A stretch of DNA of 32,927 bases, from the NCBI GenBank assembly GCA_947471365.1, contig CANIWQ010000022.1, positions 1 through 32,927 of the forward strand. Reading direction: 5' to 3'. Below the pieces are notes generated by a model. It was not told the DNA's origin. It did not search any database and worked only from the letters and a program-made list of their open reading frames with translations. Below, one piece after another: positions 2,572-21,605 of the stretch; positions within the stretch are counted from its first letter, which is position 1; each line of letters opens with the position of its first letter. The stretch is from Gemmatimonadota bacterium. Its GTDB lineage: Bacteria; Gemmatimonadota; Gemmatimonadetes; Gemmatimonadales; Gemmatimonadaceae. The position numbers were made by a program, and so were the translations under genes.

Positions 2572-3255
2572 TCAGAACTCGTTCTTGAACGAGATGATCT
2601 TGAAGCGGCCATTCCGTTCGAGAATCGTGCCGAAGAATCGGTGCGTCGTGGTGTCGCCTGCGGCGCCAACCAGCCGAAGCCGGCAGTTGGCCCACAGGCG
2701 GTTCTTCCCTTGCTGCGCTGCGGGATCGCAGGCGTAATCGGCCAGCGTCATGCGAATGCCGCCGGCCCGGCGCACGAGCCGCTTGAATCCGGAGACGCTC
2801 GGGTTCTGAATCGTGCGCCACACCAGTGCCGGATCCTGTTGGTATGGCGGGTGCGTGGCGGGTGATTCGGGATAGACGAGGTCAATGAACTCGCGCGCAG
2901 TGAGCGCCATCGCGAGCAGGTCGGCGGAATCGGCGGCCACCACGGCCTGAACGAAGCGCTTCACGAGGGCGTCGCGCGACTGGCTTGCCCCCTGCAGTTC
3001 AGCGACCGGCACCTCGCGAAGCTGCGCTGCGAACCGGCGCACCTGCTCCGCCACGGGGAGTATCGAGTCCACGACGTAGCCGGGCATGGTGCGGTTGAGA
3101 GAATCCTGCTGGGCGCGGGCGATGGAGTCTCGGCGCGCCGAATCCGCAGCCGGCAGCAATCCACGCGCGGCGCTGCGTTCCGCGGGGGTAGCGCATCCGT
3201 ACAGGAGGGCGGCCGTGACAAGGCAGAGGATCGGTCGAACGTTGCAACGAAGCAT
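2572..3255 (-). CDS. Lipoprotein of unknown function
   Basis: A 227-residue protein with a basic start, a hydrophobic segment and a lipobox LLYGC (Cys21), so it is predicted to be exported and lipid-anchored. The mature part is mixed alpha/beta in look, with a charged helical region (about 45-85), then alternating strands and a C-terminal FGTILERNGRFKIISFKNEF that could be a small beta-sheet edge. I recognise no family; the C-terminal pattern recalls small periplasmic NTF2- or cystatin-like folds only vaguely. The start ATG has no clear ribosome site and is preceded by a 10-bp tandem repeat. It is the third minus-strand envelope gene after the TonB receptor and the beta-helix lipoprotein, but a hairpin separates it from the latter, so it may have its own promoter. 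Confidence 0.8.
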   Translation of the reverse strand: MLRCNVRPILCLVTAALLYGCATPAERSAARGLLPAADSARRDSIARAQQDSLNRTMPGYVVDSILPVAEQVRRFAAQLREVPVAELQGASQSRDALVKRFVQAVVAADSADLLAMALTAREFIDLVYPESPATHPPYQQDPALVWRTIQNPSVSGFKRLVRRAGGIRMTLADYACDPAAQQGKNRLWANCRLRLVGAAGDTTTHRFFGTILERNGRFKIISFKNEF

Positions 3256-3260
3256 GCTGG

Positions 3261-3290
3261 GGCGGAGTGGGGCGGAGTGGGGAGGAATGG
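3261..3290. repeat. Short tandem repeat, 10-bp unit
   Basis: GGCGGAGTGG occurs twice exactly (3261-3280), followed by a degenerate copy GGAGGAATGG. It lies directly upstream of the minus-strand lipoprotein start at 3255, where a ribosome site or promoter would be expected. Confidence 0.7.
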
Positions 3291-3299
3291 GCAGGGTGC

Positions 3300-3337
3300 G
3301 GAAGCGGCCAGCGCCCGCGAGGACGCTGGCCGCTTCC
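3300..3337 (-). terminator. Hairpin after the beta-helix lipoprotein gene, probable terminator
   Basis: A perfect 14-bp stem (GGAAGCGGCCAGCG and its complement) with a 10-nt loop starts 16 nt after the stop at 3353. No T-run follows on the minus strand, so termination may be partial, or the stem may protect the 3' end. Confidence 0.6.
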
Positions 3338-3352
3338 CAAAGCTAGCGCCTA

Positions 3353-5095
3353 CTAGTTGCGGGTGTACGCCGTCCAACCCTGCCACCACTTTGTTCCGCC
3401 GGGAGCCACGGCACCCATGTACGCGGTCGGTACGACGAACGAGCCGGCCTTCGTCAGAATCTTGCCGGTGAACGTTGCCATGCCGCCCGTCGCGATCGGC
3501 GAGTTGGCAGCCGGAGAGAAGTCGAACGAGGACGTGCCGGTCGGCGCCACGCCGGTGGCCGGCAGCAGCGTGAAGAGCGACGCGGTCAGCGCCGAGCTGT
3601 TCACGAGGCTGTTGCCCGCGAGGTCGAACGCGTTCTGCGTGGCCGACGACGCTTGGAAGACACTGGGCACTTCGGAGAAGAGAATATTGCGCACGGCGAG
3701 ATCCGTCGTGGCGAGATCCGGGGTCGCTGCGGAACCGGCGCGCACGAACGTGAGGCTGTCACGCAGTGAGATACCGGCGCGCGCCCAGCGAGAGACGACG
3801 CCGTTCACGTAGAAGCCGCCCGTGCCGCGGCGGAGCATCAGGCCGTAGCCGCCGCCCGTGCCGGAGCAGGCCAAATCGCCGCAGCCGATCATCGTGAAGT
3901 TGGCGACCAGCGGAATGGTGAACGGCGCGGTGTTGAAGCCGAGGTCGCAACCGGTGCCGTTGCAGCCGTCATTTTCGATGCCTTCAATGTCCACCGAATA
4001 GAAGCCCGCGCCGGTGCGCGGCGTCAGCTGCACCGAGTTGTAGCCGATCAGAAACTGCATGCGCCCCGACCAGCCTTCGGACATGTCGAACATGTCGTCT
4101 GCCGTTTCGTAGGCGACGATGTGGTCGATATCAAAGCCGCCGCCGAAGAACTCGTACGAGTCATCGAGACCGGCCATCGCTTCCGTGTACGACACGCGCG
4201 TGCCCGAACCCACCGCCGCGAAGGTGAAGGCGTTGAACTCCTGGTCGATCAGCGTCGCGTAGCCGCCGAACTCGACGCGCACGTACTGCAGGGTGCCGGA
4301 GTTGTCGGTGGCGACCGTGCCGCCGTTGTACTGAATGAAGTAGTTCTTGCCGCCGGCGACCGTCGCGCCGTCTGTGCCGGTGCCTTCGATGTTCACGACA
4401 CCGCTACGGTTGTCGATGGCGTTGCCGATGATCAGCAGGCCGCCCCAGTCACCGGGCTGACGCTGGCCGGCGGCGCGCGACGACGTGAAGACAATCGGAG
4501 CGTCCGCCGTGCCCACGGCCTGAATCTTGGCGCCGCGCAGCACGAAGAGCGACGAGCCCACCGTGTTGAAGTCGCCCTTGATCGTGGTGCCGGGCTGGAT
4601 CGTCAGCGTGGCGCCATTGGCCACGTGGATGAATCCCTGCAGCGTGTAGGCGGTGTCGGCATAGAGCGTGCGGTTCGCCGTGATGTCGGTGTTGATCGTC
4701 GTGGCGGCGTTGCCGAACGCCAGCGTCGTCGCCGTGAACTCGCCCGACGCGATGCTCTTCAGGCCGTTCTTGTTCGCATACAGGCGGTACCTGTACAGCG
4801 TGCTCACCTTGAGGTTCGCGTCGGTGTAGTTCACCACACCGGCGGTGGCCGGCGCGGCGATGTTTGTCACAACGGCGAACGTGCCGGTGGAGCCCTCGGC
4901 GCGTTCGATGTCGTAGCTCACGTCACCGGCGACGCTGGAGAACGTCACCTGCACCGAACTGGCGCCCTTGGCTGACGCGGACGCGCCGAGAATTGGGTTC
5001 GGCGCCGAAGGAGCGGTAGTCTTGTCGCTGCTGCACGCGGCGACGAACGAAATGAATGCCAACGCGGTTGTCAGCGCTCGACGGGACACGGACAT
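3353..5095 (-). CDS. Lipoprotein with FN3-like and beta-helix-like domains, partner of the TonB receptor
   Basis: A 580-residue predicted surface or outer-membrane lipoprotein. The start at 5095 is chosen because it gives a clean lipoprotein signal (MSVSRRALTT..., lipobox FVAAC, Cys21) with GAGG upstream; the open frame reaches 5218 but that extension is not signal-like. After a Ser/Thr/Pro linker comes a fibronectin type III-like domain (about 33-125). A long beta-rich region follows with right-handed-helix style turns (GATLTIQPGTTIKGDF at 161-176) and the block PGDWGGLLIIGNA (214-226). An acidic stretch at 311-340 (DDSYEFFGGGFDIDH, then ETADDMFDMSE) could bind metal, and four cysteines (378, 383, 405, 410) could pair outside the cytoplasm. 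Genes of this look often follow TonB receptor genes in Bacteroidota-like genomes, from memory of the family. The ligand is unknown; a phosphorus compound is inferred from location. Confidence 0.8.
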   Translation of the reverse strand: MSVSRRALTTALAFISFVAACSSDKTTAPSAPNPILGASASAKGASSVQVTFSSVAGDVSYDIERAEGSTGTFAVVTNIAAPATAGVVNYTDANLKVSTLYRYRLYANKNGLKSIASGEFTATTLAFGNAATTINTDITANRTLYADTAYTLQGFIHVANGATLTIQPGTTIKGDFNTVGSSLFVLRGAKIQAVGTADAPIVFTSSRAAGQRQPGDWGGLLIIGNAIDNRSGVVNIEGTGTDGATVAGGKNYFIQYNGGTVATDNSGTLQYVRVEFGGYATLIDQEFNAFTFAAVGSGTRVSYTEAMAGLDDSYEFFGGGFDIDHIVAYETADDMFDMSEGWSGRMQFLIGYNSVQLTPRTGAGFYSVDIEGIENDGCNGTGCDLGFNTAPFTIPLVANFTMIGCGDLACSGTGGGYGLMLRRGTGGFYVNGVVSRWARAGISLRDSLTFVRAGSAATPDLATTDLAVRNILFSEVPSVFQASSATQNAFDLAGNSLVNSSALTASLFTLLPATGVAPTGTSSFDFSPAANSPIATGGMATFTGKILTKAGSFVVPTAYMGAVAPGGTKWWQGWTAYTRN

Positions 5096-5140
5096 GCGAA
5101 AACCTCGGTGTGATGGATGCGGTGGGTGTCGTATGAAACA

Positions 5141-5172
5141 GGGCGGAGCGGCGCACCAGCGCCGCTCCGCCC
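5141..5172 (-). terminator. Perfect hairpin between the TonB receptor and beta-helix lipoprotein genes
   Basis: A perfect 14-bp GC stem (GGGCGGAGCGGCGC and its complement) with an ACCA loop (TGGT on the minus strand), followed on the minus strand by TGTTT only. It is 69 nt after the receptor stop and 46 nt before the lipoprotein start. It could be a partial terminator that lowers expression of the second gene, or an mRNA-stabilising stem. Confidence 0.65.
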
Positions 5173-5213
5173 ATAAAACAAATCCTCGAGTGTATTCCTC
5201 CGGTCTCGTCAGC

Positions 5214-5229
5214 GTCACGACACCGTCAC
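5214..5229 (-). promoter_or_regulatory. Possible Pho-box-like pair before the beta-helix lipoprotein gene
   Basis: GTCAC at 5214-5218 and GTCAC at 5225-5229 are 11 bp apart, the same half-site and period as the boxes before pstS. On the minus strand a TACACT hexamer (5194-5189) follows at a plausible -10 distance. It overlies the spacer just after the receptor stop, so it could give the lipoprotein gene its own phosphate-responsive promoter. Confidence 0.35.
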
Positions 5230-5240
5230 GACCTCCGGTG

Positions 5241-8018
5241 CTACGGCCGGAACTGCACGCCCGCCTGAATGGTGCGGCCCGCCAGATACCGCTCGCGCGT
5301 TACCGTTCCCTGCATGGTCTCGTAGGGCGCGTCAAGCAGATTGCGCACGTCCGCGCGAATCGTCACCGCGGCGGTGACGCCGAGGCGGAGCGAGAGATCC
5401 ATGACGTTGCGCGGCTTGATCACCACGTCAGGCAACGGAGACTCGCCGGCCACGTCGATGCGTTCGCCGACCCGGTTGAACAGCAGCGTGGCCGTCGACG
5501 ATCCGCGGTTACTGGTGTATGTCAACCCGCCATTGATCACATAGGGAGCTTGCCCCACCATGCGGCGGCTCAGGTTCGTAAGGCTCGCGCCCGCGGCCGC
5601 CGAGAGGTGAATCTGGCTCGACATCACGGTGACGTTGCTGAACACAGCGAACGGCGCCAATGGGCGTCCGAGGAAGCCGAGCTCCTTGCGCGCTTCGAGT
5701 TCCACTCCGAAGTTGTCGGCGCGTTCGGCGTTCGCGTACAGCACCTGGCGCGCGCTCGACGACGCGCGGTAGACACGTTCGATCGGGTTCGTGAACTGCT
5801 TGCCGAAGACCGCGACGCTGATCAGTTCGCCGGCGTTCGGGTACCATTCCCAGCGCACGTCCACGTTCGTGACGTTGGTGCGCTGGAGATTTTCGTCGCC
5901 CTGCAGATCGTCACCGCCCACCACGTCGCGGCTGATGATGGGAGAGAGTTCACGGTACTCGGGGCGCGCCAACGTACGCGACGCGGCCAGGCGCAGCTGC
6001 TGCGTCTCGGTGAGCTTGTAGTTCACCGCGAGGGACGGCAGCACGTCGGCCCAGACTTTTCGTGTGCTCACCGAGCGGCCGAGCGTGGACGTCGCGTTCA
6101 CGCCAAGGTGGTCGAGTTCGTAGCGCGCCCCGCCGATCACGCGGAGCCGGGCACTGATCGGCACTTCGGCCATCGCAAACGTCGCCGACAGCTGGTCGTG
6201 GGCATCGTACGCACCGCCCTGTGATAGCGGGCCGATGTCGAACACCGCCGAGGTCGCCTGTGTGAAGCGACCGTCGAAGAGTTGTTCGGGCGACAGTTCG
6301 CGCGTGGCGTTGGACAGCCCGCGCCCATTGATATTGAAGGCGCGGTTGTCGGCGCTGCGATCCGTCGAGCGAAGCAGCGTGCCGATCTTGATGGTCGACT
6401 GCCGACCTGCGTCGCCGAATGCGAGCGTGTACTTGGCGCTGAGCTCCCGGCTGTTTTCCACGAGCTCCGAGAACGTCCGCACCGCGCCGCCGTTGCCGCT
6501 GCCGAACCAGCGCAGCACGTCCGGGCCGGCGGGCGTGTCCCGCTCGATCACCTGAACGAACTCCGACTTGTCCGGCTCGGAGCGGCGCACGCCGCTCACC
6601 GTGCCCGCCCACTCGACGTGATGCCGGTCGCCGAACTGATGGTCGCCGGCCAGCTGCAGAGAATGCACCGCACGCTCCACGTATTGCATGCGCGTAATCC
6701 TGGCGCGGTTGTCGTTGGCGCTCAGGTAGCCGGTTTCGATGCGCGCGGTGTTGTCGGCCGTGCGGTTGTATAAGGCATTAATGGAAAGGCGCGAACCGTT
6801 GCCGATCATCGTGCTCAGGTTGGCGAGCCCGCCCCACAGCACGCTCTGCTGCGCGCTCTCCCCGGTGAACTTGTCCAGTTCGATCGTTTCGCCGCGCACC
6901 GGGCCGCGGTCGGCGAGCGCGCGCACCTGGTTGTTCTTTCGGTCCGTCGACGAGCTGATCGTCGCCGAAACCAGATATCCGAGTCGGTGGCCGAACAGCA
7001 ACGGGTCGTTGCCGCCGAAGGAAAACGACCCGTTGACGAGCGGCGCGCCGGTCGCGGCCGTCGGCATCCACGAGTTGCGGAACTGACTCACGAGCAGGTT
7101 CTTGTCGCCCTGCGACAGCGTGCGTCCGGCGAAATTGCCCACCGACGCCACGAGTGACGGCAAGTCACGTCCATGGTTCACCATCGCCATGCCTTCTCCA
7201 CCGCTCGTGCCTGGGCTGAGAATGCTGGCGCCCGTCGCGTCGGATTCGTATCCGCTCCCGAGGTTCAGTGACCAGCTGCGCCGCGCCGGAAACTCGCGCG
7301 TCTTGATGTCCACCTGCGCACCGGAAAAGTCGCCCTGCTGGTCCGGCGTAAAGGTCTTGGAGGTCGTGATGGACTGCACGAGTCCGGCGGGGAAGAGATC
7401 CAGCGGCACCATGCGCTTTTCCGGTTCCGGGCTCGGTACGCGCGCGCCGTTCAGGGAACTCGTCGTGTACCGTTCGCCAAGCCCGCGCACGGCGATGTAA
7501 CGGCCGTCCGTCACCGTCACGCCACTCACGCGCTGCACGGCCTGCGCGGCATTGCCATCCGGGCTCTTGGCAATCTGCTCGGCGGTAATGGAGTTCACGA
7601 CGCCGGTGGCCGTGCGCTGCTGATCCACCGATTCATTGATAGTGCCGCGTTCTGCGCTCGCCGTGACGACGATTTCGGCCAGTGCCGCCGACGCGGGCGG
7701 AAGCGCAACATCCTGCTCGAGGTTCGAGCCGGGCGCGAGCATGAGCCCCGTGACCGTCTTTGCGGCATAGCCGATGCGGCGGAAATACAGCGTTACCGTG
7801 CCCGGCACGACCCCTTGCAGGCGATACCGCCCGTCGACGTTGGTGGCCCCTCCGAGCGTCGTGCCGACCACTTGAACGACCACATCGCGTAGCGCATGCC
7901 CCGTGGCCGCGTCGATGACGCGGCCCGTAATGCGGCCGCTGGGCGGCGCCTGCGCGGCCGAGCGGTGCGACACGACTGCAAGAAGAAGCAGGACGCCGAG
8001 GATCGTGCGATGAGTCAT
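5241..8018 (-). CDS. TonB-dependent outer-membrane receptor with carboxypeptidase-regulatory-like N-terminus
   Basis: A 925-residue outer-membrane receptor. The ATG at 8018 is chosen for its AGGAG site 6 nt upstream and its clean signal peptide (MTHRTILGVLLLLAVVSHRSAAQ, cleaved near residue 23). Residues 28-107 form a CarboxypepD_reg-like beta-sandwich (GRITGRVIDAATGHALRDVV), as in SusC-type receptors. EIVVTAS (115-121) is a candidate TonB box. The plug spans about 130-245 and includes VRGLGERYTTSSLNGARVPS (178-197) and the PLDLFPAGLVQSI strand. The rest is a beta-barrel ending in QFRP. It imports its substrate using proton-motive force through TonB/ExbBD, which are not encoded here. It is divergent from pstS across a 393-bp region full of Pho-box-like sites, so it is probably phosphate-regulated. 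Substrate unknown; organophosphates, polyphosphate-type or nucleic-acid-type ligands are guesses. Confidence 0.93.
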   Translation of the reverse strand: MTHRTILGVLLLLAVVSHRSAAQAPPSGRITGRVIDAATGHALRDVVVQVVGTTLGGATNVDGRYRLQGVVPGTVTLYFRRIGYAAKTVTGLMLAPGSNLEQDVALPPASAALAEIVVTASAERGTINESVDQQRTATGVVNSITAEQIAKSPDGNAAQAVQRVSGVTVTDGRYIAVRGLGERYTTSSLNGARVPSPEPEKRMVPLDLFPAGLVQSITTSKTFTPDQQGDFSGAQVDIKTREFPARRSWSLNLGSGYESDATGASILSPGTSGGEGMAMVNHGRDLPSLVASVGNFAGRTLSQGDKNLLVSQFRNSWMPTAATGAPLVNGSFSFGGNDPLLFGHRLGYLVSATISSSTDRKNNQVRALADRGPVRGETIELDKFTGESAQQSVLWGGLANLSTMIGNGSRLSINALYNRTADNTARIETGYLSANDNRARITRMQYVERAVHSLQLAGDHQFGDRHHVEWAGTVSGVRRSEPDKSEFVQVIERDTPAGPDVLRWFGSGNGGAVRTFSELVENSRELSAKYTLAFGDAGRQSTIKIGTLLRSTDRSADNRAFNINGRGLSNATRELSPEQLFDGRFTQATSAVFDIGPLSQGGAYDAHDQLSATFAMAEVPISARLRVIGGARYELDHLGVNATSTLGRSVSTRKVWADVLPSLAVNYKLTETQQLRLAASRTLARPEYRELSPIISRDVVGGDDLQGDENLQRTNVTNVDVRWEWYPNAGELISVAVFGKQFTNPIERVYRASSSARQVLYANAERADNFGVELEARKELGFLGRPLAPFAVFSNVTVMSSQIHLSAAAGASLTNLSRRMVGQAPYVINGGLTYTSNRGSSTATLLFNRVGERIDVAGESPLPDVVIKPRNVMDLSLRLGVTAAVTIRADVRNLLDAPYETMQGTVTRERYLAGRTIQAGVQFRP

Positions 8019-8107
8019 AGAGTTCTCCTGTAGGAGCGGCGCGAACACCGCGCGCGCTGGCAACGCAGAAGTTTCTCATCGCTTTGCGACAACGATGTGT
8101 CGGACGT

Positions 8108-8123
8108 GCAACGGCGACGTAAC
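8108..8123 (+). promoter_or_regulatory. Weak Pho-box-like pair, TonB-receptor side
   Basis: GCAAC (8108-8112) and GTAAC (8119-8123) are 11 bp apart, within the longer match GTGCAAC-N4-ACGTAAC. It lies about 90 bp upstream of the receptor start and is weaker than the triads downstream. Confidence 0.35.
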
Positions 8124-8154
8124 AGGGGCTGCAGTCACGGAGCGCGAGAGGCTT

Positions 8155-8192
8155 GTTACGTCCCCGTTACGGGCGCGAGGCTTCGCCGTGAC
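8155..8192 (+). promoter_or_regulatory. Candidate Pho-box triad in the receptor-pstS control region
   Basis: GTTAC (8155), GTTAC (8166) and GTGAC (8188) have offsets 0, +11 and +33, identical to the triads at 756 and 8324. The half-site is its own reverse complement, so direction is set only by the asymmetric offsets. It is 137 bp from the receptor start and about 220 bp from pstS, and could serve either. Confidence 0.5.
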
Positions 8193-8205
8193 AGTCGTTA
8201 CACAA
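8188..8205 (-). promoter_or_regulatory. Candidate minus-strand Pho box facing the TonB receptor gene
   Basis: Read on the minus strand this is TTGTGTAACGACTGTCAC, two CTGTCAC-like half-sites 11 bp apart and close to the E. coli Pho-box consensus. Its orientation suits activation of the receptor gene. It overlaps the last half-site of the plus-strand triad at 8155-8192. Confidence 0.4.
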
Positions 8206-8323
8206 CGTTCTCTTCGTGACATTCGGACTGGATTCGTACGGCGCAGGCCGGCGCTCCGAATGACACGGCCAGTAGCAGCGAAGCACCGACTGCGATGATG
8301 GGCGGCCTCGGCTTTCTCGGCGG

Positions 8324-8361
8324 GTTACGCGTCCGTTACCGCGAACTCGCAACACCGTGAC
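8324..8361 (+). promoter_or_regulatory. Candidate Pho-box triad upstream of pstS
   Basis: GTTAC (8324), GTTAC (8335) and GTGAC (8357) lie at offsets 0, +11 and +33. The last one ends 50 bp before the pstS start. pstS is the most typical PhoB target, which makes this the best-supported of the three triads. Confidence 0.6.
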
Positions 8362-8411
8362 GGAGCCAGAGCAACTTTCTGCCTCCCCCTCAACCGTAAG
8401 GAGCAGACACC

Positions 8412-9449
8412 GTGACTGTTCGTGCCTTCCGTTCCGCCGCGCTCGCCTTGCTGGGTATTGCAGGCGCCGTTCTTCCCGCCGCCGCGCAGGACCTCACCGG
8501 TGCCGGCGCCACGTTTCCGTATCCTGTGTATTCGAAGTGGTTCAACGATTACGCCGCGAAGAGCGGTGTGAAGATCAACTATCAGTCGATCGGCTCCGGC
8601 GGCGGTGTGCGCCAGATCTCCGAGCAGACGGTGGACTTTGGCGCGACCGACGGACCGATGAGCGATGACGAAATGGGGAAGGCCAAGGGCGGCCCGATCC
8701 TCCACATCCCGACCGTCATGGGCGGTGTGGTCGTCGTGTACAACGTGCCGGGAGCCAAGGGACAGCTCAAGTTCAGCGGCGATGTGATCGCCGACATCTT
8801 CCTCGGCAAAATCACTAAGTGGAACGACCCGCGCATCACCGCGATCAACAAGGGTGAGGCGCTTCCTGCGCAGGACATTCTCGTCGTGCACCGTTCCGAC
8901 GGTAGCGGCACCACCTACATCTGGACCGACTACCTGACCGCCGTGAGCCCCGAATGGGCGAAGGGGCCGGGCAAGGGCAAGGATGTGAAGTGGCCCGTTG
9001 GTTTGGGTGGTAAGGGCAACGAAGGCGTGGCCGGTCAGGTGCAGCAGCTTCCCGGCGCCATTGGGTATGTGGAACTGATCTACGCGCGTCAGAACAAGAT
9101 CTCGTTCGGCGCCGTCAAGAACGCTTCCGGCAACTTCGTGACGGCTTCCACTGAGACGATCACCGACGCCGCTGCGGGCGTGGCCAAGGGCTTGCCGAAG
9201 GACACCGACTTCCGCGTGTCGATCGTCAACGCGCCGGGCAAGAGCGCGTACCCGATTGCTTCGATGACATGGTTGCTGGTCTACCAGAAGCAGGCTGATG
9301 CCGCCAAGGGCAAGAAGTTGGTGGACTTCCTCAACTGGATGTTGGTCGATGGACAGGCGACGGCTGCTGGGCTCGACTATGCGCCGCTCCCCTCCGCCGT
9401 GGTGAAGCAGGTGAAGGCGCGTGTGGCATCCATCGCCGTCGCCAAGTAA
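8412..9449 (+). CDS. pstS: PstS, periplasmic phosphate-binding protein of the Pst ABC transporter
   Basis: A 345-residue secreted solute-binding protein that captures inorganic phosphate with high affinity and delivers it to PstCA. The signal peptide (MTVRAFRSAALALLGIAGAV...) ends near AAAQ at 23-26. Family motifs follow in order: GAGATFPYPVYSKWF, GSGGGVRQI, the ligand loop RSDGSGTT (Ser162) and GNEGVAGQVQQLPGAIGYVE. The GTG start is supported by AAGGAG at 8398-8403. Its length is usual for full-length PstS. The porin-like gene follows after 43 nt, so pstS is separated from pstCAB by that gene and by a terminator. Candidate Pho boxes lie upstream. Confidence 0.97.
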   Translation: MTVRAFRSAALALLGIAGAVLPAAAQDLTGAGATFPYPVYSKWFNDYAAKSGVKINYQSIGSGGGVRQISEQTVDFGATDGPMSDDEMGKAKGGPILHIPTVMGGVVVVYNVPGAKGQLKFSGDVIADIFLGKITKWNDPRITAINKGEALPAQDILVVHRSDGSGTTYIWTDYLTAVSPEWAKGPGKGKDVKWPVGLGGKGNEGVAGQVQQLPGAIGYVELIYARQNKISFGAVKNASGNFVTASTETITDAAAGVAKGLPKDTDFRVSIVNAPGKSAYPIASMTWLLVYQKQADAAKGKKLVDFLNWMLVDGQATAAGLDYAPLPSAVVKQVKARVASIAVAK

Positions 9450-19150: not shown

Positions 19151-20863
19151 CTACCCGCGGCGCGCCGCGTCGGGGAAGGTCGCGCGAATCGTGGTTCCGC
19201 GGCCTACGTCGCTCTCGGCCCACACGCGGCCGCCGTGCGCGTCCACGAGATGCTTCACAATGGCCAGTCCAAGCCCGGTGCCGCCCTCAGCGCGCGAGCG
19301 CGCAGGGTCCACCCGGTAGAACCGCTCAAAGATGCGCGGCAGGTGGTCGGCGCCAATCCCACTGCCCGTGTCGCGGACGCCAACGGTCACGCGTCCATCG
19401 GCGCGCGCCGCAAACACCGTCACGCTGCCTTTCGCCGTGTGGCGCACGGCGTTGTCCACCAAGTTGCCGAGGATCTGGCGTAGCGCGGTCGGGTCGGCAA
19501 AGGCCTGTGCGGTATCACGGTCAATGTCGACGTGCAACGTAATGCCTTTGGCATCTGCCGCCGGACGCGCCACGGCGAGGGCGTCGGCCACCGCGATGGC
19601 AATGTCCGCCTGCACTGGCTCCGGTACCCAACTGCCCGACTCAATGCGCGAGAGGTCGAGTAAGTCATCCACAATGCGCTGCATGCGGCGCGTGTTGTTG
19701 AGGATCGTGGTCGTGAACTGGCGACGCGTCTCGGCGTCCGGCTCATCCTGCGCCAGCGTCTCGGCAAAGCCGCGCACCACCGTCAGCGGTGTCTTGAGCT
19801 CGTGCGAGACATTGGCCACAAAGTCGCGCCGCACGGTCTCGAGTCGGCGCAACCGCGTGAGGTCGAGCAGTGCGACCACCGCGCCCCCTTGCTCCAGTGG
19901 GCGTGCGGTAATGGAAAAGGTGCGTCCACCAAACGACGCTTCCACTTCGCGCACCGTCTCCCCGGCGAGCGCAGACGCGAGCGCATCGCGGAGCGCGCGT
20001 TCGCGCGGCAGAATATCAAACGGAAAGGGCAACGGCTCGCGGCGGTCCAGCAGGGCGCGGCCGGTGTCGTTGATGCGCACCACCTGTTGGCGCTGATCCA
20101 CCGCAAAAATCCCTTCGTTCAGCGACTCGGCGAGTTCGCGCATCACATTTTCTTCGGCGCGGAGCGCCTCCACGCGAATCGCCAGTTGCTCGGCGAGTCG
20201 ATGCACGGCGTCGGCGAGCTCGCCCACTTCTCCCGGGGCGGCCAGCGCGGGGCGTCGCGAAAAATCACCGTCGGCGAGCGCGCGGGTCACGTCGCGCAAC
20301 TCACGGACCGGGCGCGACACACTGGTCGCGAAGAGCCAGGCCAGCACCAGCGCGCCGGCCATCGCGAGTCCGCTCGCCACCGCCACGTCGCGCCGCGCCG
20401 ATGCAATGATCGCGTCGAGGGTGACGGTCGCCAGCGACACACGCGCTGTGCCGAGTCGTGCGCGCACCGCGACGTATAACTCGGAGTCACCGGCCGACGG
20501 GCTTTGGCGGCGCGCCGAACCCTGGCCGGTCGCGCGGGCCTGCACCACTTCGGGGCGCGAGGCGTGATTTTCTAACTGTTGCAACAACGCACCGCGAAAT
20601 TCAGAGTCGCCAATCACCCGGCCCGTGGAATCGATGAGCGTCACGCGATGGCCGCTCGCGCGCGCGGCCTGTGCCGCCAACTCCTCGGCGTTCACATTCG
20701 GCGTCCATTCCGCCGCCACGAGCTGCGCTTCACGCGCCAACCCTTCGGTCGCCATCACCGAGAGCCGATCGTAGAACTTTTGATCCACAATGAGCGTGAG
20801 AAACAACGCGAGCACACCGACGATAGTCAGGGCGCCGAGCAGGAGCCGAGTGGGAAGTCGCAT
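19151..20863 (-). CDS. phoR: PhoR, sensor histidine kinase of the phosphate regulon
   Basis: A 570-residue membrane kinase. It has TM1 (about 5-26), a periplasmic region of roughly 130 residues, TM2 (about 160-182), HAMP (about 183-235), a PAS domain (about 240-335), HisKA with the phospho-accepting His354 in DFVANVSHELKTPLT, and HATPase_c with NLVDNAVRH (467-475), DTGSGIG and GGTGLGL. This is the PhoR/PhoP-R layout with an extracytoplasmic loop larger than in E. coli PhoR, which lacks one. The ATG at 20863 is 10 nt after the phoB stop; no ribosome site is visible, so translation is probably coupled to phoB. It phosphorylates PhoB when the Pst/PhoU complex signals phosphate shortage. Confidence 0.95.
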   Translation of the reverse strand: MRLPTRLLLGALTIVGVLALFLTLIVDQKFYDRLSVMATEGLAREAQLVAAEWTPNVNAEELAAQAARASGHRVTLIDSTGRVIGDSEFRGALLQQLENHASRPEVVQARATGQGSARRQSPSAGDSELYVAVRARLGTARVSLATVTLDAIIASARRDVAVASGLAMAGALVLAWLFATSVSRPVRELRDVTRALADGDFSRRPALAAPGEVGELADAVHRLAEQLAIRVEALRAEENVMRELAESLNEGIFAVDQRQQVVRINDTGRALLDRREPLPFPFDILPRERALRDALASALAGETVREVEASFGGRTFSITARPLEQGGAVVALLDLTRLRRLETVRRDFVANVSHELKTPLTVVRGFAETLAQDEPDAETRRQFTTTILNNTRRMQRIVDDLLDLSRIESGSWVPEPVQADIAIAVADALAVARPAADAKGITLHVDIDRDTAQAFADPTALRQILGNLVDNAVRHTAKGSVTVFAARADGRVTVGVRDTGSGIGADHLPRIFERFYRVDPARSRAEGGTGLGLAIVKHLVDAHGGRVWAESDVGRGTTIRATFPDAARRG

Positions 20864-20873
20864 TGGAGGAGCG

Positions 20874-21605
20874 CTACCGCGCGAGCTTGCTAGGGGGGGT
20901 GCCGTCCGGCGACCGCAGGCGGTACCCAAAGCCGCGCACCGTCTCAATCAGTTCGCCTTCGCCGCCCAGCTTGGTGCGGAGGCGCTGCACGTGCATGTCG
21001 ACGGTGCGCGTCTGAATGTCGGGGGCCGCTTCCCATACGGTTTCGAGCAAGTGCCCTCGTGACTGTACGCGCCCACGCCGCTCGGCGAGCGTCAGTAAGA
21101 GCTTGAACTCCGTGGGGGTCAGCTCAATCTCGGCGCCGTCGCGCGTGACGCGGTGCGCTGACCGATCAATGGCAATGGTGTCGATGGTGATCACATCGGC
21201 GGTGGGCATCCCGCCGGAGGTGCGGCGGAGAATGGCGCTAATCCGCAACACGAGTTCTTGCGGGCTGAACGGCTTGGTGAGGTAGTCGTCCGCGCCCAAG
21301 GTGAGACCGCGAATGCGATCGGGCTCTTCGCGCCGCGCCGTGAGCATAAGGACGGCGACGTGCTGTGTGGCGCGGTCGGCGCGCAGCTGCTCGAGGACTT
21401 CAAAACCCGAAAGGCCGGGGAGCATGAGGTCGAGAATCACCAGCGCCGGTCGCTCGCGTCGGGCGATGGCGAGCGCGTCAGGCCCCGTTTGTGCCGACGA
21501 AACTTTGTAGCCCGCCTTGGCCAGATGGTAGACCACGAGGGCGACGATGTCGGGCTCATCGTCCACCACGAGAATGCGGTCAGCGGCGGTGGCGTCGGCG
21601 TTCAT
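20874..21605 (-). CDS. phoB: PhoB/PhoP, OmpR-type response regulator of the phosphate regulon
   Basis: A 243-residue response regulator. The receiver domain (about 9-125) has the acidic pocket VVDDEPD, the phosphorylated Asp59 (VILDLMLPG), Thr/Ala switch MLTAR and Lys111 (LTKPF). The C-terminal winged-helix domain (about 140-235) has ELTPTEFKLLLTLAERRGR and the recognition stretch TRTVDMHVQRLRTKLG. It is expected to bind 11-bp direct repeats, which fits the candidate boxes elsewhere in this window. The ATG overlaps the udk stop (ATGA), so it depends on translation of udk. Assignment to PhoB rather than another OmpR-type regulator rests on phoR next door and the surrounding pho genes. Confidence 0.94.
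   Translation of the reverse strand: MNADATAADRILVVDDEPDIVALVVYHLAKAGYKVSSAQTGPDALAIARRERPALVILDLMLPGLSGFEVLEQLRADRATQHVAVLMLTARREEPDRIRGLTLGADDYLTKPFSPQELVLRISAILRRTSGGMPTADVITIDTIAIDRSAHRVTRDGAEIELTPTEFKLLLTLAERRGRVQSRGHLLETVWEAAPDIQTRTVDMHVQRLRTKLGGEGELIETVRGFGYRLRSPDGTPPSKLAR

Follow-up and report, generated by a model that had tools for sequence, protein, structure and literature searches.

Predicted divergent Pho-type promoter arrays between a TonB-dependent receptor gene and pstS in a Gemmatimonadota bacterium

The gap that separates a TonB-dependent receptor gene from the divergently oriented pstS in a Gemmatimonadota genome (assembly GCA_947471365.1) is crowded with the pentamer GTNAC, and the question raised by this locus is what such crowding stands for. 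The gap (8019-8411) lies in the window, by which we mean the whole stretch of 32,927 nt of contig CANIWQ010000022.1 that was analysed. A sequence-only reading had taken the density of these sites as a sign of PhoB acting on a divergent promoter pair, with part of the cluster serving the receptor gene. Gemmatimonadota are widespread, with six species in culture, and a survey of the phylum names both PhoR-PhoB and pstSCAB (PMC10581226). Subscription journals being mostly outside coverage, no paper linking Gemmatimonadota with the term "Pho box" was found in the literature.

The surroundings of the gap form a phosphate gene cluster. A DUF47-type protein and a Pit-like transporter (824-2482) are followed by a block on the minus strand (2572-8018), whose first gene encodes the TonB-dependent receptor (5241-8018, minus strand, ATG at 8018), with a carboxypeptidase-regulatory-like N-terminal domain (PF00593, PF07715, PF13620) and a score of 259.8 bits against TIGR01782, under the cut-off of 310. 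Downstream of it, on the same strand, a secreted lipoprotein-like protein of unassigned family was read from the translation (3353-5095); it gave no match in Pfam or NCBIfam and a single weak one, to an Fn3-like protein (E 0.004), in a PDB search. Judging from its translation, this gene likely starts at the ATG at 5095 and not at the listed GTG at 5218, which falls inside array D (see below). On the other side, pstS (8412-9449, plus strand; PF12849, 2e-42) has a GTG start with AAGGAG upstream, and its best matches are in Gemmatimonadetes MAGs. It precedes genes for a porin-like protein, two Pst permeases, two Pst ATPases and PhoU, beyond which come a polyphosphate-kinase-like protein, a Ppx/GppA phosphatase, a PhoR-like sensor kinase (19151-20947, minus strand; HATPase_c, HisKA, HAMP) and, adjoining it, a PhoB-like response regulator (20874-21605, minus strand), the presumed binder of the arrays described here. 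For the latter, TIGR02154 was the best of 104 matching NCBIfam models, yet its 248.7 bits remain under the curated cut-off of 296.2. Names backed by family matches when checked are those of PstS, the receptor, PhoU, Ppx/GppA, PhoR and PhoB, the others being read from translations.

All ten GTNAC sites listed in the sequence-only reading (8119, 8134, 8155, 8166, 8188, 8197, 8216, 8324, 8335 and 8357) were confirmed within these 393 bp, and an eleventh, at 8412, just beyond the region, is the pstS start codon itself (GTG AC). The whole window contains 128, and the background that had been estimated at about one per 300 bp was about right (one per 278 bp in the rest of the window). The Markov-background count proposed there as a check gave 1.2-1.4 sites expected in 393 bp versus the 10 found, using models of order 1-4 trained on the rest of the window with 40 simulated windows each, in which no 389-bp stretch held more than 8. 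A Poisson estimate (1.4 expected) gave P = 2e-6 for 10 or more, and when the models were trained on the region itself the expectation rose to 1.8 (order 1) and 2.6 (order 2), 10 being reached in none of the 2000 simulations run for each. GTNAC was also the most enriched of the 256 words of the form XXNXX in the region, the runner-up being AGNAG (P = 6e-4). Two triplets with identical spacing, GTTAC-11-GTTAC-22-GTGAC, stand at 8155/8166/8188 and 8324/8335/8357.

This spacing is part of a larger order, to which seven of the ten sites belong. Three arrays could be recognized in the gap, each made up of four half-sites that recur at 11-bp intervals and of a -10-like hexamer; counted from where the last half-site starts, the hexamer begins at 15 bp, and its A and T are found at +16 and +20. 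Array A (8070-8123, minus strand), a Pho-type promoter by its layout, faces the receptor gene; its half-sites, read 5' to 3' on that strand, are GTTAC (8123), GTTGC (8112), GACAC (8101) and GTCGC (8090), followed by GAAACT at 8075-8070. Array B (8155-8208, plus strand), a predicted additional, distal promoter facing pstS, consists of GTTAC (8155), GTTAC (8166), GAGGC (8177) and GTGAC (8188), with CAACGT at 8203-8208. Array C (8324-8377, plus strand), the predicted proximal promoter of pstS, has GTTAC (8324), GTTAC (8335), CTCGC (8346) and GTGAC (8357), with CAACTT at 8372-8377. Half-sites 3 and 4 are often weak. The three remaining GTNAC sites are out of phase and unexplained: GTCAC at 8134-8138, 15 bp from the first half-site of array A, GTTAC at 8197-8201, between the last half-site of array B and its -10, and GTGAC at 8216-8220, downstream of array B. 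The enrichment that had drawn attention to this gap, 10 sites versus 1.2-1.5 expected, is thus real, but the signal is not density as such; the unit is a set of four half-sites in 11-bp phase, followed at a constant distance by a -10-like hexamer. Likewise, the divergence of the arrays was correctly anticipated, although there are three promoter-like arrays and not two, and on the receptor side GTNAC picks out 8119, the only such site in array A, while missing the rest of it, since the second half-site is GTTGC.

A profile built from the receptor promoters of 16 relatives, anchored by eye and including no sequence from the window, exceeded 9 bits at four places in the 33 kb, all in gaps preceding genes of the phosphate cluster: A (25.5 bits), B (19.2), C (19.1) and a fourth, array D (14.2), on the minus strand at 5192-5229, before the lipoprotein-like gene. 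In 60 simulated windows the maxima averaged 4.9 bits and the best reached 14.8, which makes array D insecure by simulation alone. It gains support from the relatives, as a match above 10 bits was found just past the receptor gene in 13 of the 15 loci that cover its place, the two without it being L140 and L146. The half-sites of array D are GTGAC (5229), GTGAC (5218), GAGAC (5207) and AATAC (5196); a clear -10 is absent at the usual place, the A of the -10 being missing. In 7950-8450, no sigma-70 consensus promoter (TTGACA/TATAAT, 16-18 bp spacing) and no terminator-like site were found, and the window gave no Rfam match at gathering scores.

Orthologues of the receptor were present in 19 of the 61 genomes searched, 17 of them outside the clade of this bacterium. 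A pair of GTKRC half-sites at 11 bp, directed toward the receptor gene, preceded 16 of these 17, in agreement with the earlier suggestion that part of the cluster faces this gene; other spacings between 6 and 16 bp gave 0-1 pairs each toward the gene, and one pair at 11 bp pointed away from it. The only locus without the 11-bp pair, L146, belongs to a distant relative (38 percent identity). Once aligned by hand with the first half-site as anchor, the 16 promoters read CGTKAC, CGTTRC 11 bp further on, then a CGTG-like half-site, CGANAC and a -10-like SANNNT that starts 15 bp past the start of the fourth half-site, with the A (+16) in 15/16 and the T (+20) in 14/16. L140 fits this register poorly (10.7 bits), and its GTKRC pair is elsewhere, at -188. 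The receptor gene also keeps Pho company in these genomes: a homologue (at least 51 percent identity) of the PhoR, PhoB or PhoU encoded in the window lies upstream of it in 11 of the 17 loci (PhoR in eight, among them L139 at about 570 bp; PhoB in L144; PhoU in L133 and L136). In L130-L132, L135, L139 and L142 (genomes G013, G008, G003, G020, G051 and G010), a relative of pstS (36-58 percent identity) with the same orientation as the receptor gene is situated 2.3-2.9 kb beyond it, and in these genomes receptor and periplasmic binder may form a common operon. A pstS relative was also seen in G022, 4.0 kb past the receptor.

The same architecture is found before pstS. With the receptor-promoter profile, 26 of the 59 pstS upstream regions of relatives scored above 9 bits toward the gene (0.01 expected), corresponding to 23 distinct arrays after removing genomes present twice, while in the opposite direction there was one, L171, whose genome (G047) carries two divergent copies of pstS. 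The other 33 regions had no array above 9 bits; several of these pstS copies look like genes inside an operon. Without recourse to the profile, GTKRC pairs toward pstS were present at exactly 11 bp in 24/59 regions, as against one to five at any different spacing between 6 and 16 bp, and pairs away from pstS at 11 bp in 2/59. When all 39 promoters (the 16 of the receptor plus those of pstS) were considered together, the -10 A was present in 34/39 and the T in 37/39, figures to which the profile contributes, as the pstS rows were chosen with -10 columns included in it. Placement is similar too: the first half-site of array C is at -88 from the start codon, and that of the pstS array of G016 (L096) at -90 from the start of the match.

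Could the GTNAC cluster still be a chance accumulation in a G+C-rich gap? Palindromic 5-mers are short, and in the genome of this bacterium the bare pair GTKAC-N6-GTKAC was found 15 times versus 11 for the reversed control (13 versus 11 for GTYAC-N6-GTYAC), so that enrichment is not clear and GTNAC alone is a weak marker; with 8 of the 15 exact-pair sites inspected falling within predicted ORFs, such pairs offer no route to the regulon. The Poisson probability given above, and a phase, an orientation and a place that are conserved across genera, make chance hardly credible. We instead take 8019-8411 for a divergent Pho promoter region through which the receptor and the pst genes would be co-induced, presumably by PhoB, a reading to which we assign a probability of roughly 0.8.

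How far these arrays correspond to known Pho promoters can be judged by comparison. In the E. coli phoA promoter, the Pho box stands in place of the -35 element, 15 bp from the -10. The E. coli consensus is given as CTGTCAT-A(AT)A(TA)-CTGT(CA)A(CT) (PMC3465305), in units of 11 nt (PMC4415409). As in the E. coli pstS and phoA promoters, there are here a 7-bp unit repeated directly every 11 bp, a PhoB-PhoR pair and pstS as a target. The direct repeats in 11-bp phase are shared by A, B, C and D, and the -10 at a fixed distance by A, B and C but not D; phosphate-acquisition genes lie downstream and PhoBR is encoded. What is missing in the direction of the gene is the core TGT(C/A)A, the centre being occupied by T or G. 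Within 8019-8411, TGTCA does not occur on the plus strand, and TGACA, its minus-strand form, occurs three times, at 8189 in the fourth half-site of array B, at 8217 in the 8216 site and at 8261. Unlike the E. coli box, the arrays also have C and not T before GT, often GTTGC as second half-site, no A/T-rich spacer, and usually four half-sites.

The half-site in this phylum can be written YCGT[T/G][A/G]C, as opposed to the ordinary form YTGT[C/A]A[C/T]. Among 70 regions upstream of pstS in other phyla (Acidobacteriota, Geobacter and others), 11-bp pairs face the gene as they do here, with the ordinary core GTMAY (GT[C/A]A[C/T]) in 34/70 and GTKRC in 0/70, whereas the Gemmatimonadota pstS regions gave 2/59 and 24/59, respectively. 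The difference in code is not absolute, since the profile of the 39 promoters passed 9 bits in 9/70 of the regions from other phyla (5/8 of those of Geobacter type), and in 6/70 when reversed.

One way to account for the changed centre is that PhoB binds these arrays backwards with an unchanged base preference, GT[T/G]AC being on the other strand GT[C/A]AC, that is, the ordinary core. As GTNAC is palindromic except for its centre, a reversed box would account for the centre base as well; besides, in the Gemmatimonadota pstS regions 11-bp GTMAY pairs pointing away from the gene are present in 19/59, against 2/59 toward it, and the reversed reading keeps a pyrimidine at -1 in 31/39 (first half-site) and 34/39 (second). 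The flanking bases, however, mostly argue against it. In the 34 regions of other phyla, the half-site beside the -10 has a pyrimidine at -2 and -1 in 34/34 and A at +5 in 29/34, and the distal one a pyrimidine at -2 in 29/34 and at -1 in 31/34, with A at +5 in 13/34. Read directly, the first and second half-sites of the 39 promoters have a pyrimidine at -2 in 33 and 36 cases, at -1 in 37 and 39, and A at +5 in 21 and 21; read in reverse, with figures derived from the direct-reading counts, the pyrimidine at -2 is kept in only 16/39 and 14/39 and the A at +5 in only 5/39 and 2/39. In addition, the distance from the last half-site to the -10 equals that in other phyla, where A at +16 is found in 27/34 regions and T at +20 in 21/34. 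A reversed box is thus considered unlikely, and boxes read toward the gene, with a changed centre, are preferred.

The recognition helix of PhoB reads TRTVDMHVQRLR, a phylum-specific form, in all eight Gemmatimonadota loci located by tblastn. Its Met and Gln occupy the helix places that in E. coli PhoB belong to Val197 and Arg200. Matches, possibly to paralogues, were also obtained at 33 loci of other phyla; of these, only L071 has M and only L029 has Q at the respective place. It is a guess that the centre base of the half-site depends on these two residues. From this, a broader proposal can be put forward tentatively, and we would place it somewhat short of even odds: the entire Gemmatimonadota Pho regulon may have been recoded, the centre from C/A to T/G and the helix to TRTVDMHVQRLR, with box and regulator co-evolving to become orthogonal to those of other phyla, and in this particular clade a receptor block with its own promoter may have ended up between pit and pstS, giving rise to a divergent hub of three promoters.

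A different core, together with a PhoB candidate under its NCBIfam cut-off, might also mean that another regulator of the OmpR family occupies the arrays, the more so as the binding sites of such regulators are stated in PMC4832192 to be direct repeats in all known cases. We regard this as quite improbable: the arrays precede pstS, the receptor gene and other genes of a phosphate cluster that itself encodes PhoB-PhoR, in 9 of the 17 loci of relatives the receptor gene has upstream of it a gene for a homologue of PhoR or PhoB, and the PhoB helix is invariant in the eight Gemmatimonadota loci. PhoP boxes of Streptomyces (GTTCACC) and Mycobacterium tuberculosis (TCACAGC) are 11-bp direct repeats as well (PMC4832192, PMC4415409); they share with the arrays the periodicity and a binder of the OmpR/PhoB family, and differ in half-site sequence and targets. 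M. tuberculosis PhoP requires a strict 4-bp spacer, a change of 1 bp strongly reducing affinity, and binds cooperatively as tandem dimers that can extend to tetramers (PMC4832192). By analogy with that behaviour, and from the arrangement of the half-sites, cooperative binding of PhoB would be expected here.

Two arrays facing the same gene are an exception. Among 61 pstS regions, non-overlapping tandem arrays were found only in L094 and L095, which correspond to the present genome and to G006, its near twin. In L096, L097 and L106, the apparent end of pit lies upstream of the pstS array, while here the receptor block stands between pit and pstS. A tandem promoter pair for pstS, seen in this clade alone, is the best reading of array B, although there is an appreciable, if lesser, likelihood that array B is an inactive remnant or provides extra binding sites for the receptor side only. 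Its restriction to these two loci would fit such a role, and so would the leader of about 200 nt that would lie between array B and pstS, where no Rfam family was found. Its complete anatomy, with CAACGT at the correct place, speaks for a promoter, as does its identity in G006, which also retains all ten GTNAC sites, though G006 is nearly identical across the entire gap. An origin of array B as a duplicate of C was also considered and found no support: at unconserved columns the likeness of B and C is 0.42, no more than that of A to either (0.45 each; 0.31, sd 0.09, for pairs from relatives), which leaves no sign of recent copying.

A sequence-only model, R1, made from the 39 promoters of relatives (alignment A1), was used to search the 3.31-Mb genome of this bacterium. 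Scoring 150 of 1422 first-look candidates gave ten matches with E<=10, four of them in the window: C ranked first (E 2e-4), B second (0.003), A sixth (0.13; 14.8 bits) and D eighth (0.2; 14.1 bits), A and D being not significant genome-wide among the candidates scored. With the six matches outside the window, no further phosphate gene was established within the same 150 candidates. One of them, a two-half-site match (GTGACACGACCGTTGC, positions 1501-1526 of L176, C54 of this genome), is about 55-80 bp before a DUF1800 gene, which is possibly a further Pho-regulated gene; no known phosphate gene is there. Another (L180) is correctly oriented right before an ORF of 496 aa with no Pfam match, a third (L174) adjoins a type I phosphodiesterase gene on the opposite strand, and the remaining three (L175, L178, L181) are within ORFs.

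A cluster of GTNAC (703, 714, 756, 789) was seen again at 691-823, upstream of the DUF47-pit operon; array matches there are weak, at 10.9 and 8.1 bits, and lie on the strand that points away from pit. The motif TTTG-N17..21-TAnnTT, which we take to be a core promoter type like that of Bacteroidota, precedes DUF47-pit in 15 of 30 loci (L182-L211, including the window itself and its near twin; 0.12 expected), with the copy of the window at about 743-773, and Gemmatimonadota may share this -33/-7 promoter type. The site at 756 lies between the likely -33 and -7 elements, a position that would suit repression of pit by PhoB.

The arrays, each oriented toward a gene, have an 11-bp spacing, are conserved in relatives (B only in the near twin), in A, B and C end in a -10-like hexamer, and have Pho genes as neighbours; from the sequence we infer that PhoB is their binder and that low phosphate would induce the genes that they face. 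Under phosphate limitation, PhoR would phosphorylate PhoB, whose dimers would bind head to tail along each array, so that the last protomer would replace the -35 contact and recruit RNA polymerase to a weak -10. The receptor gene (and, with array D, also that of the partner protein) and the pst operon would then be induced jointly, pstS being transcribed from the two tandem promoters B and C. A related pairing, ElpS/CC0171, is known in Caulobacter crescentus, where a surface lipoprotein encoded beside a TonB-dependent receptor is produced on phosphate starvation, and where the receptor gene has been reported as constitutive (PMC2996285). The receptor and the 3353-5095 protein resemble this pair by neighbourhood and presumed regulation, and unlike in Caulobacter the receptor gene here carries a predicted Pho-type promoter.

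This analysis provides a testable definition of the phosphate-starvation promoter of Gemmatimonadota in terms of half-site, number, spacing and -10. Conserved promoters also link phosphate supply with a TonB-dependent receptor and its partner protein, and the phylum offers a natural case in which a regulatory box and the recognition helix of its regulator may have changed together.
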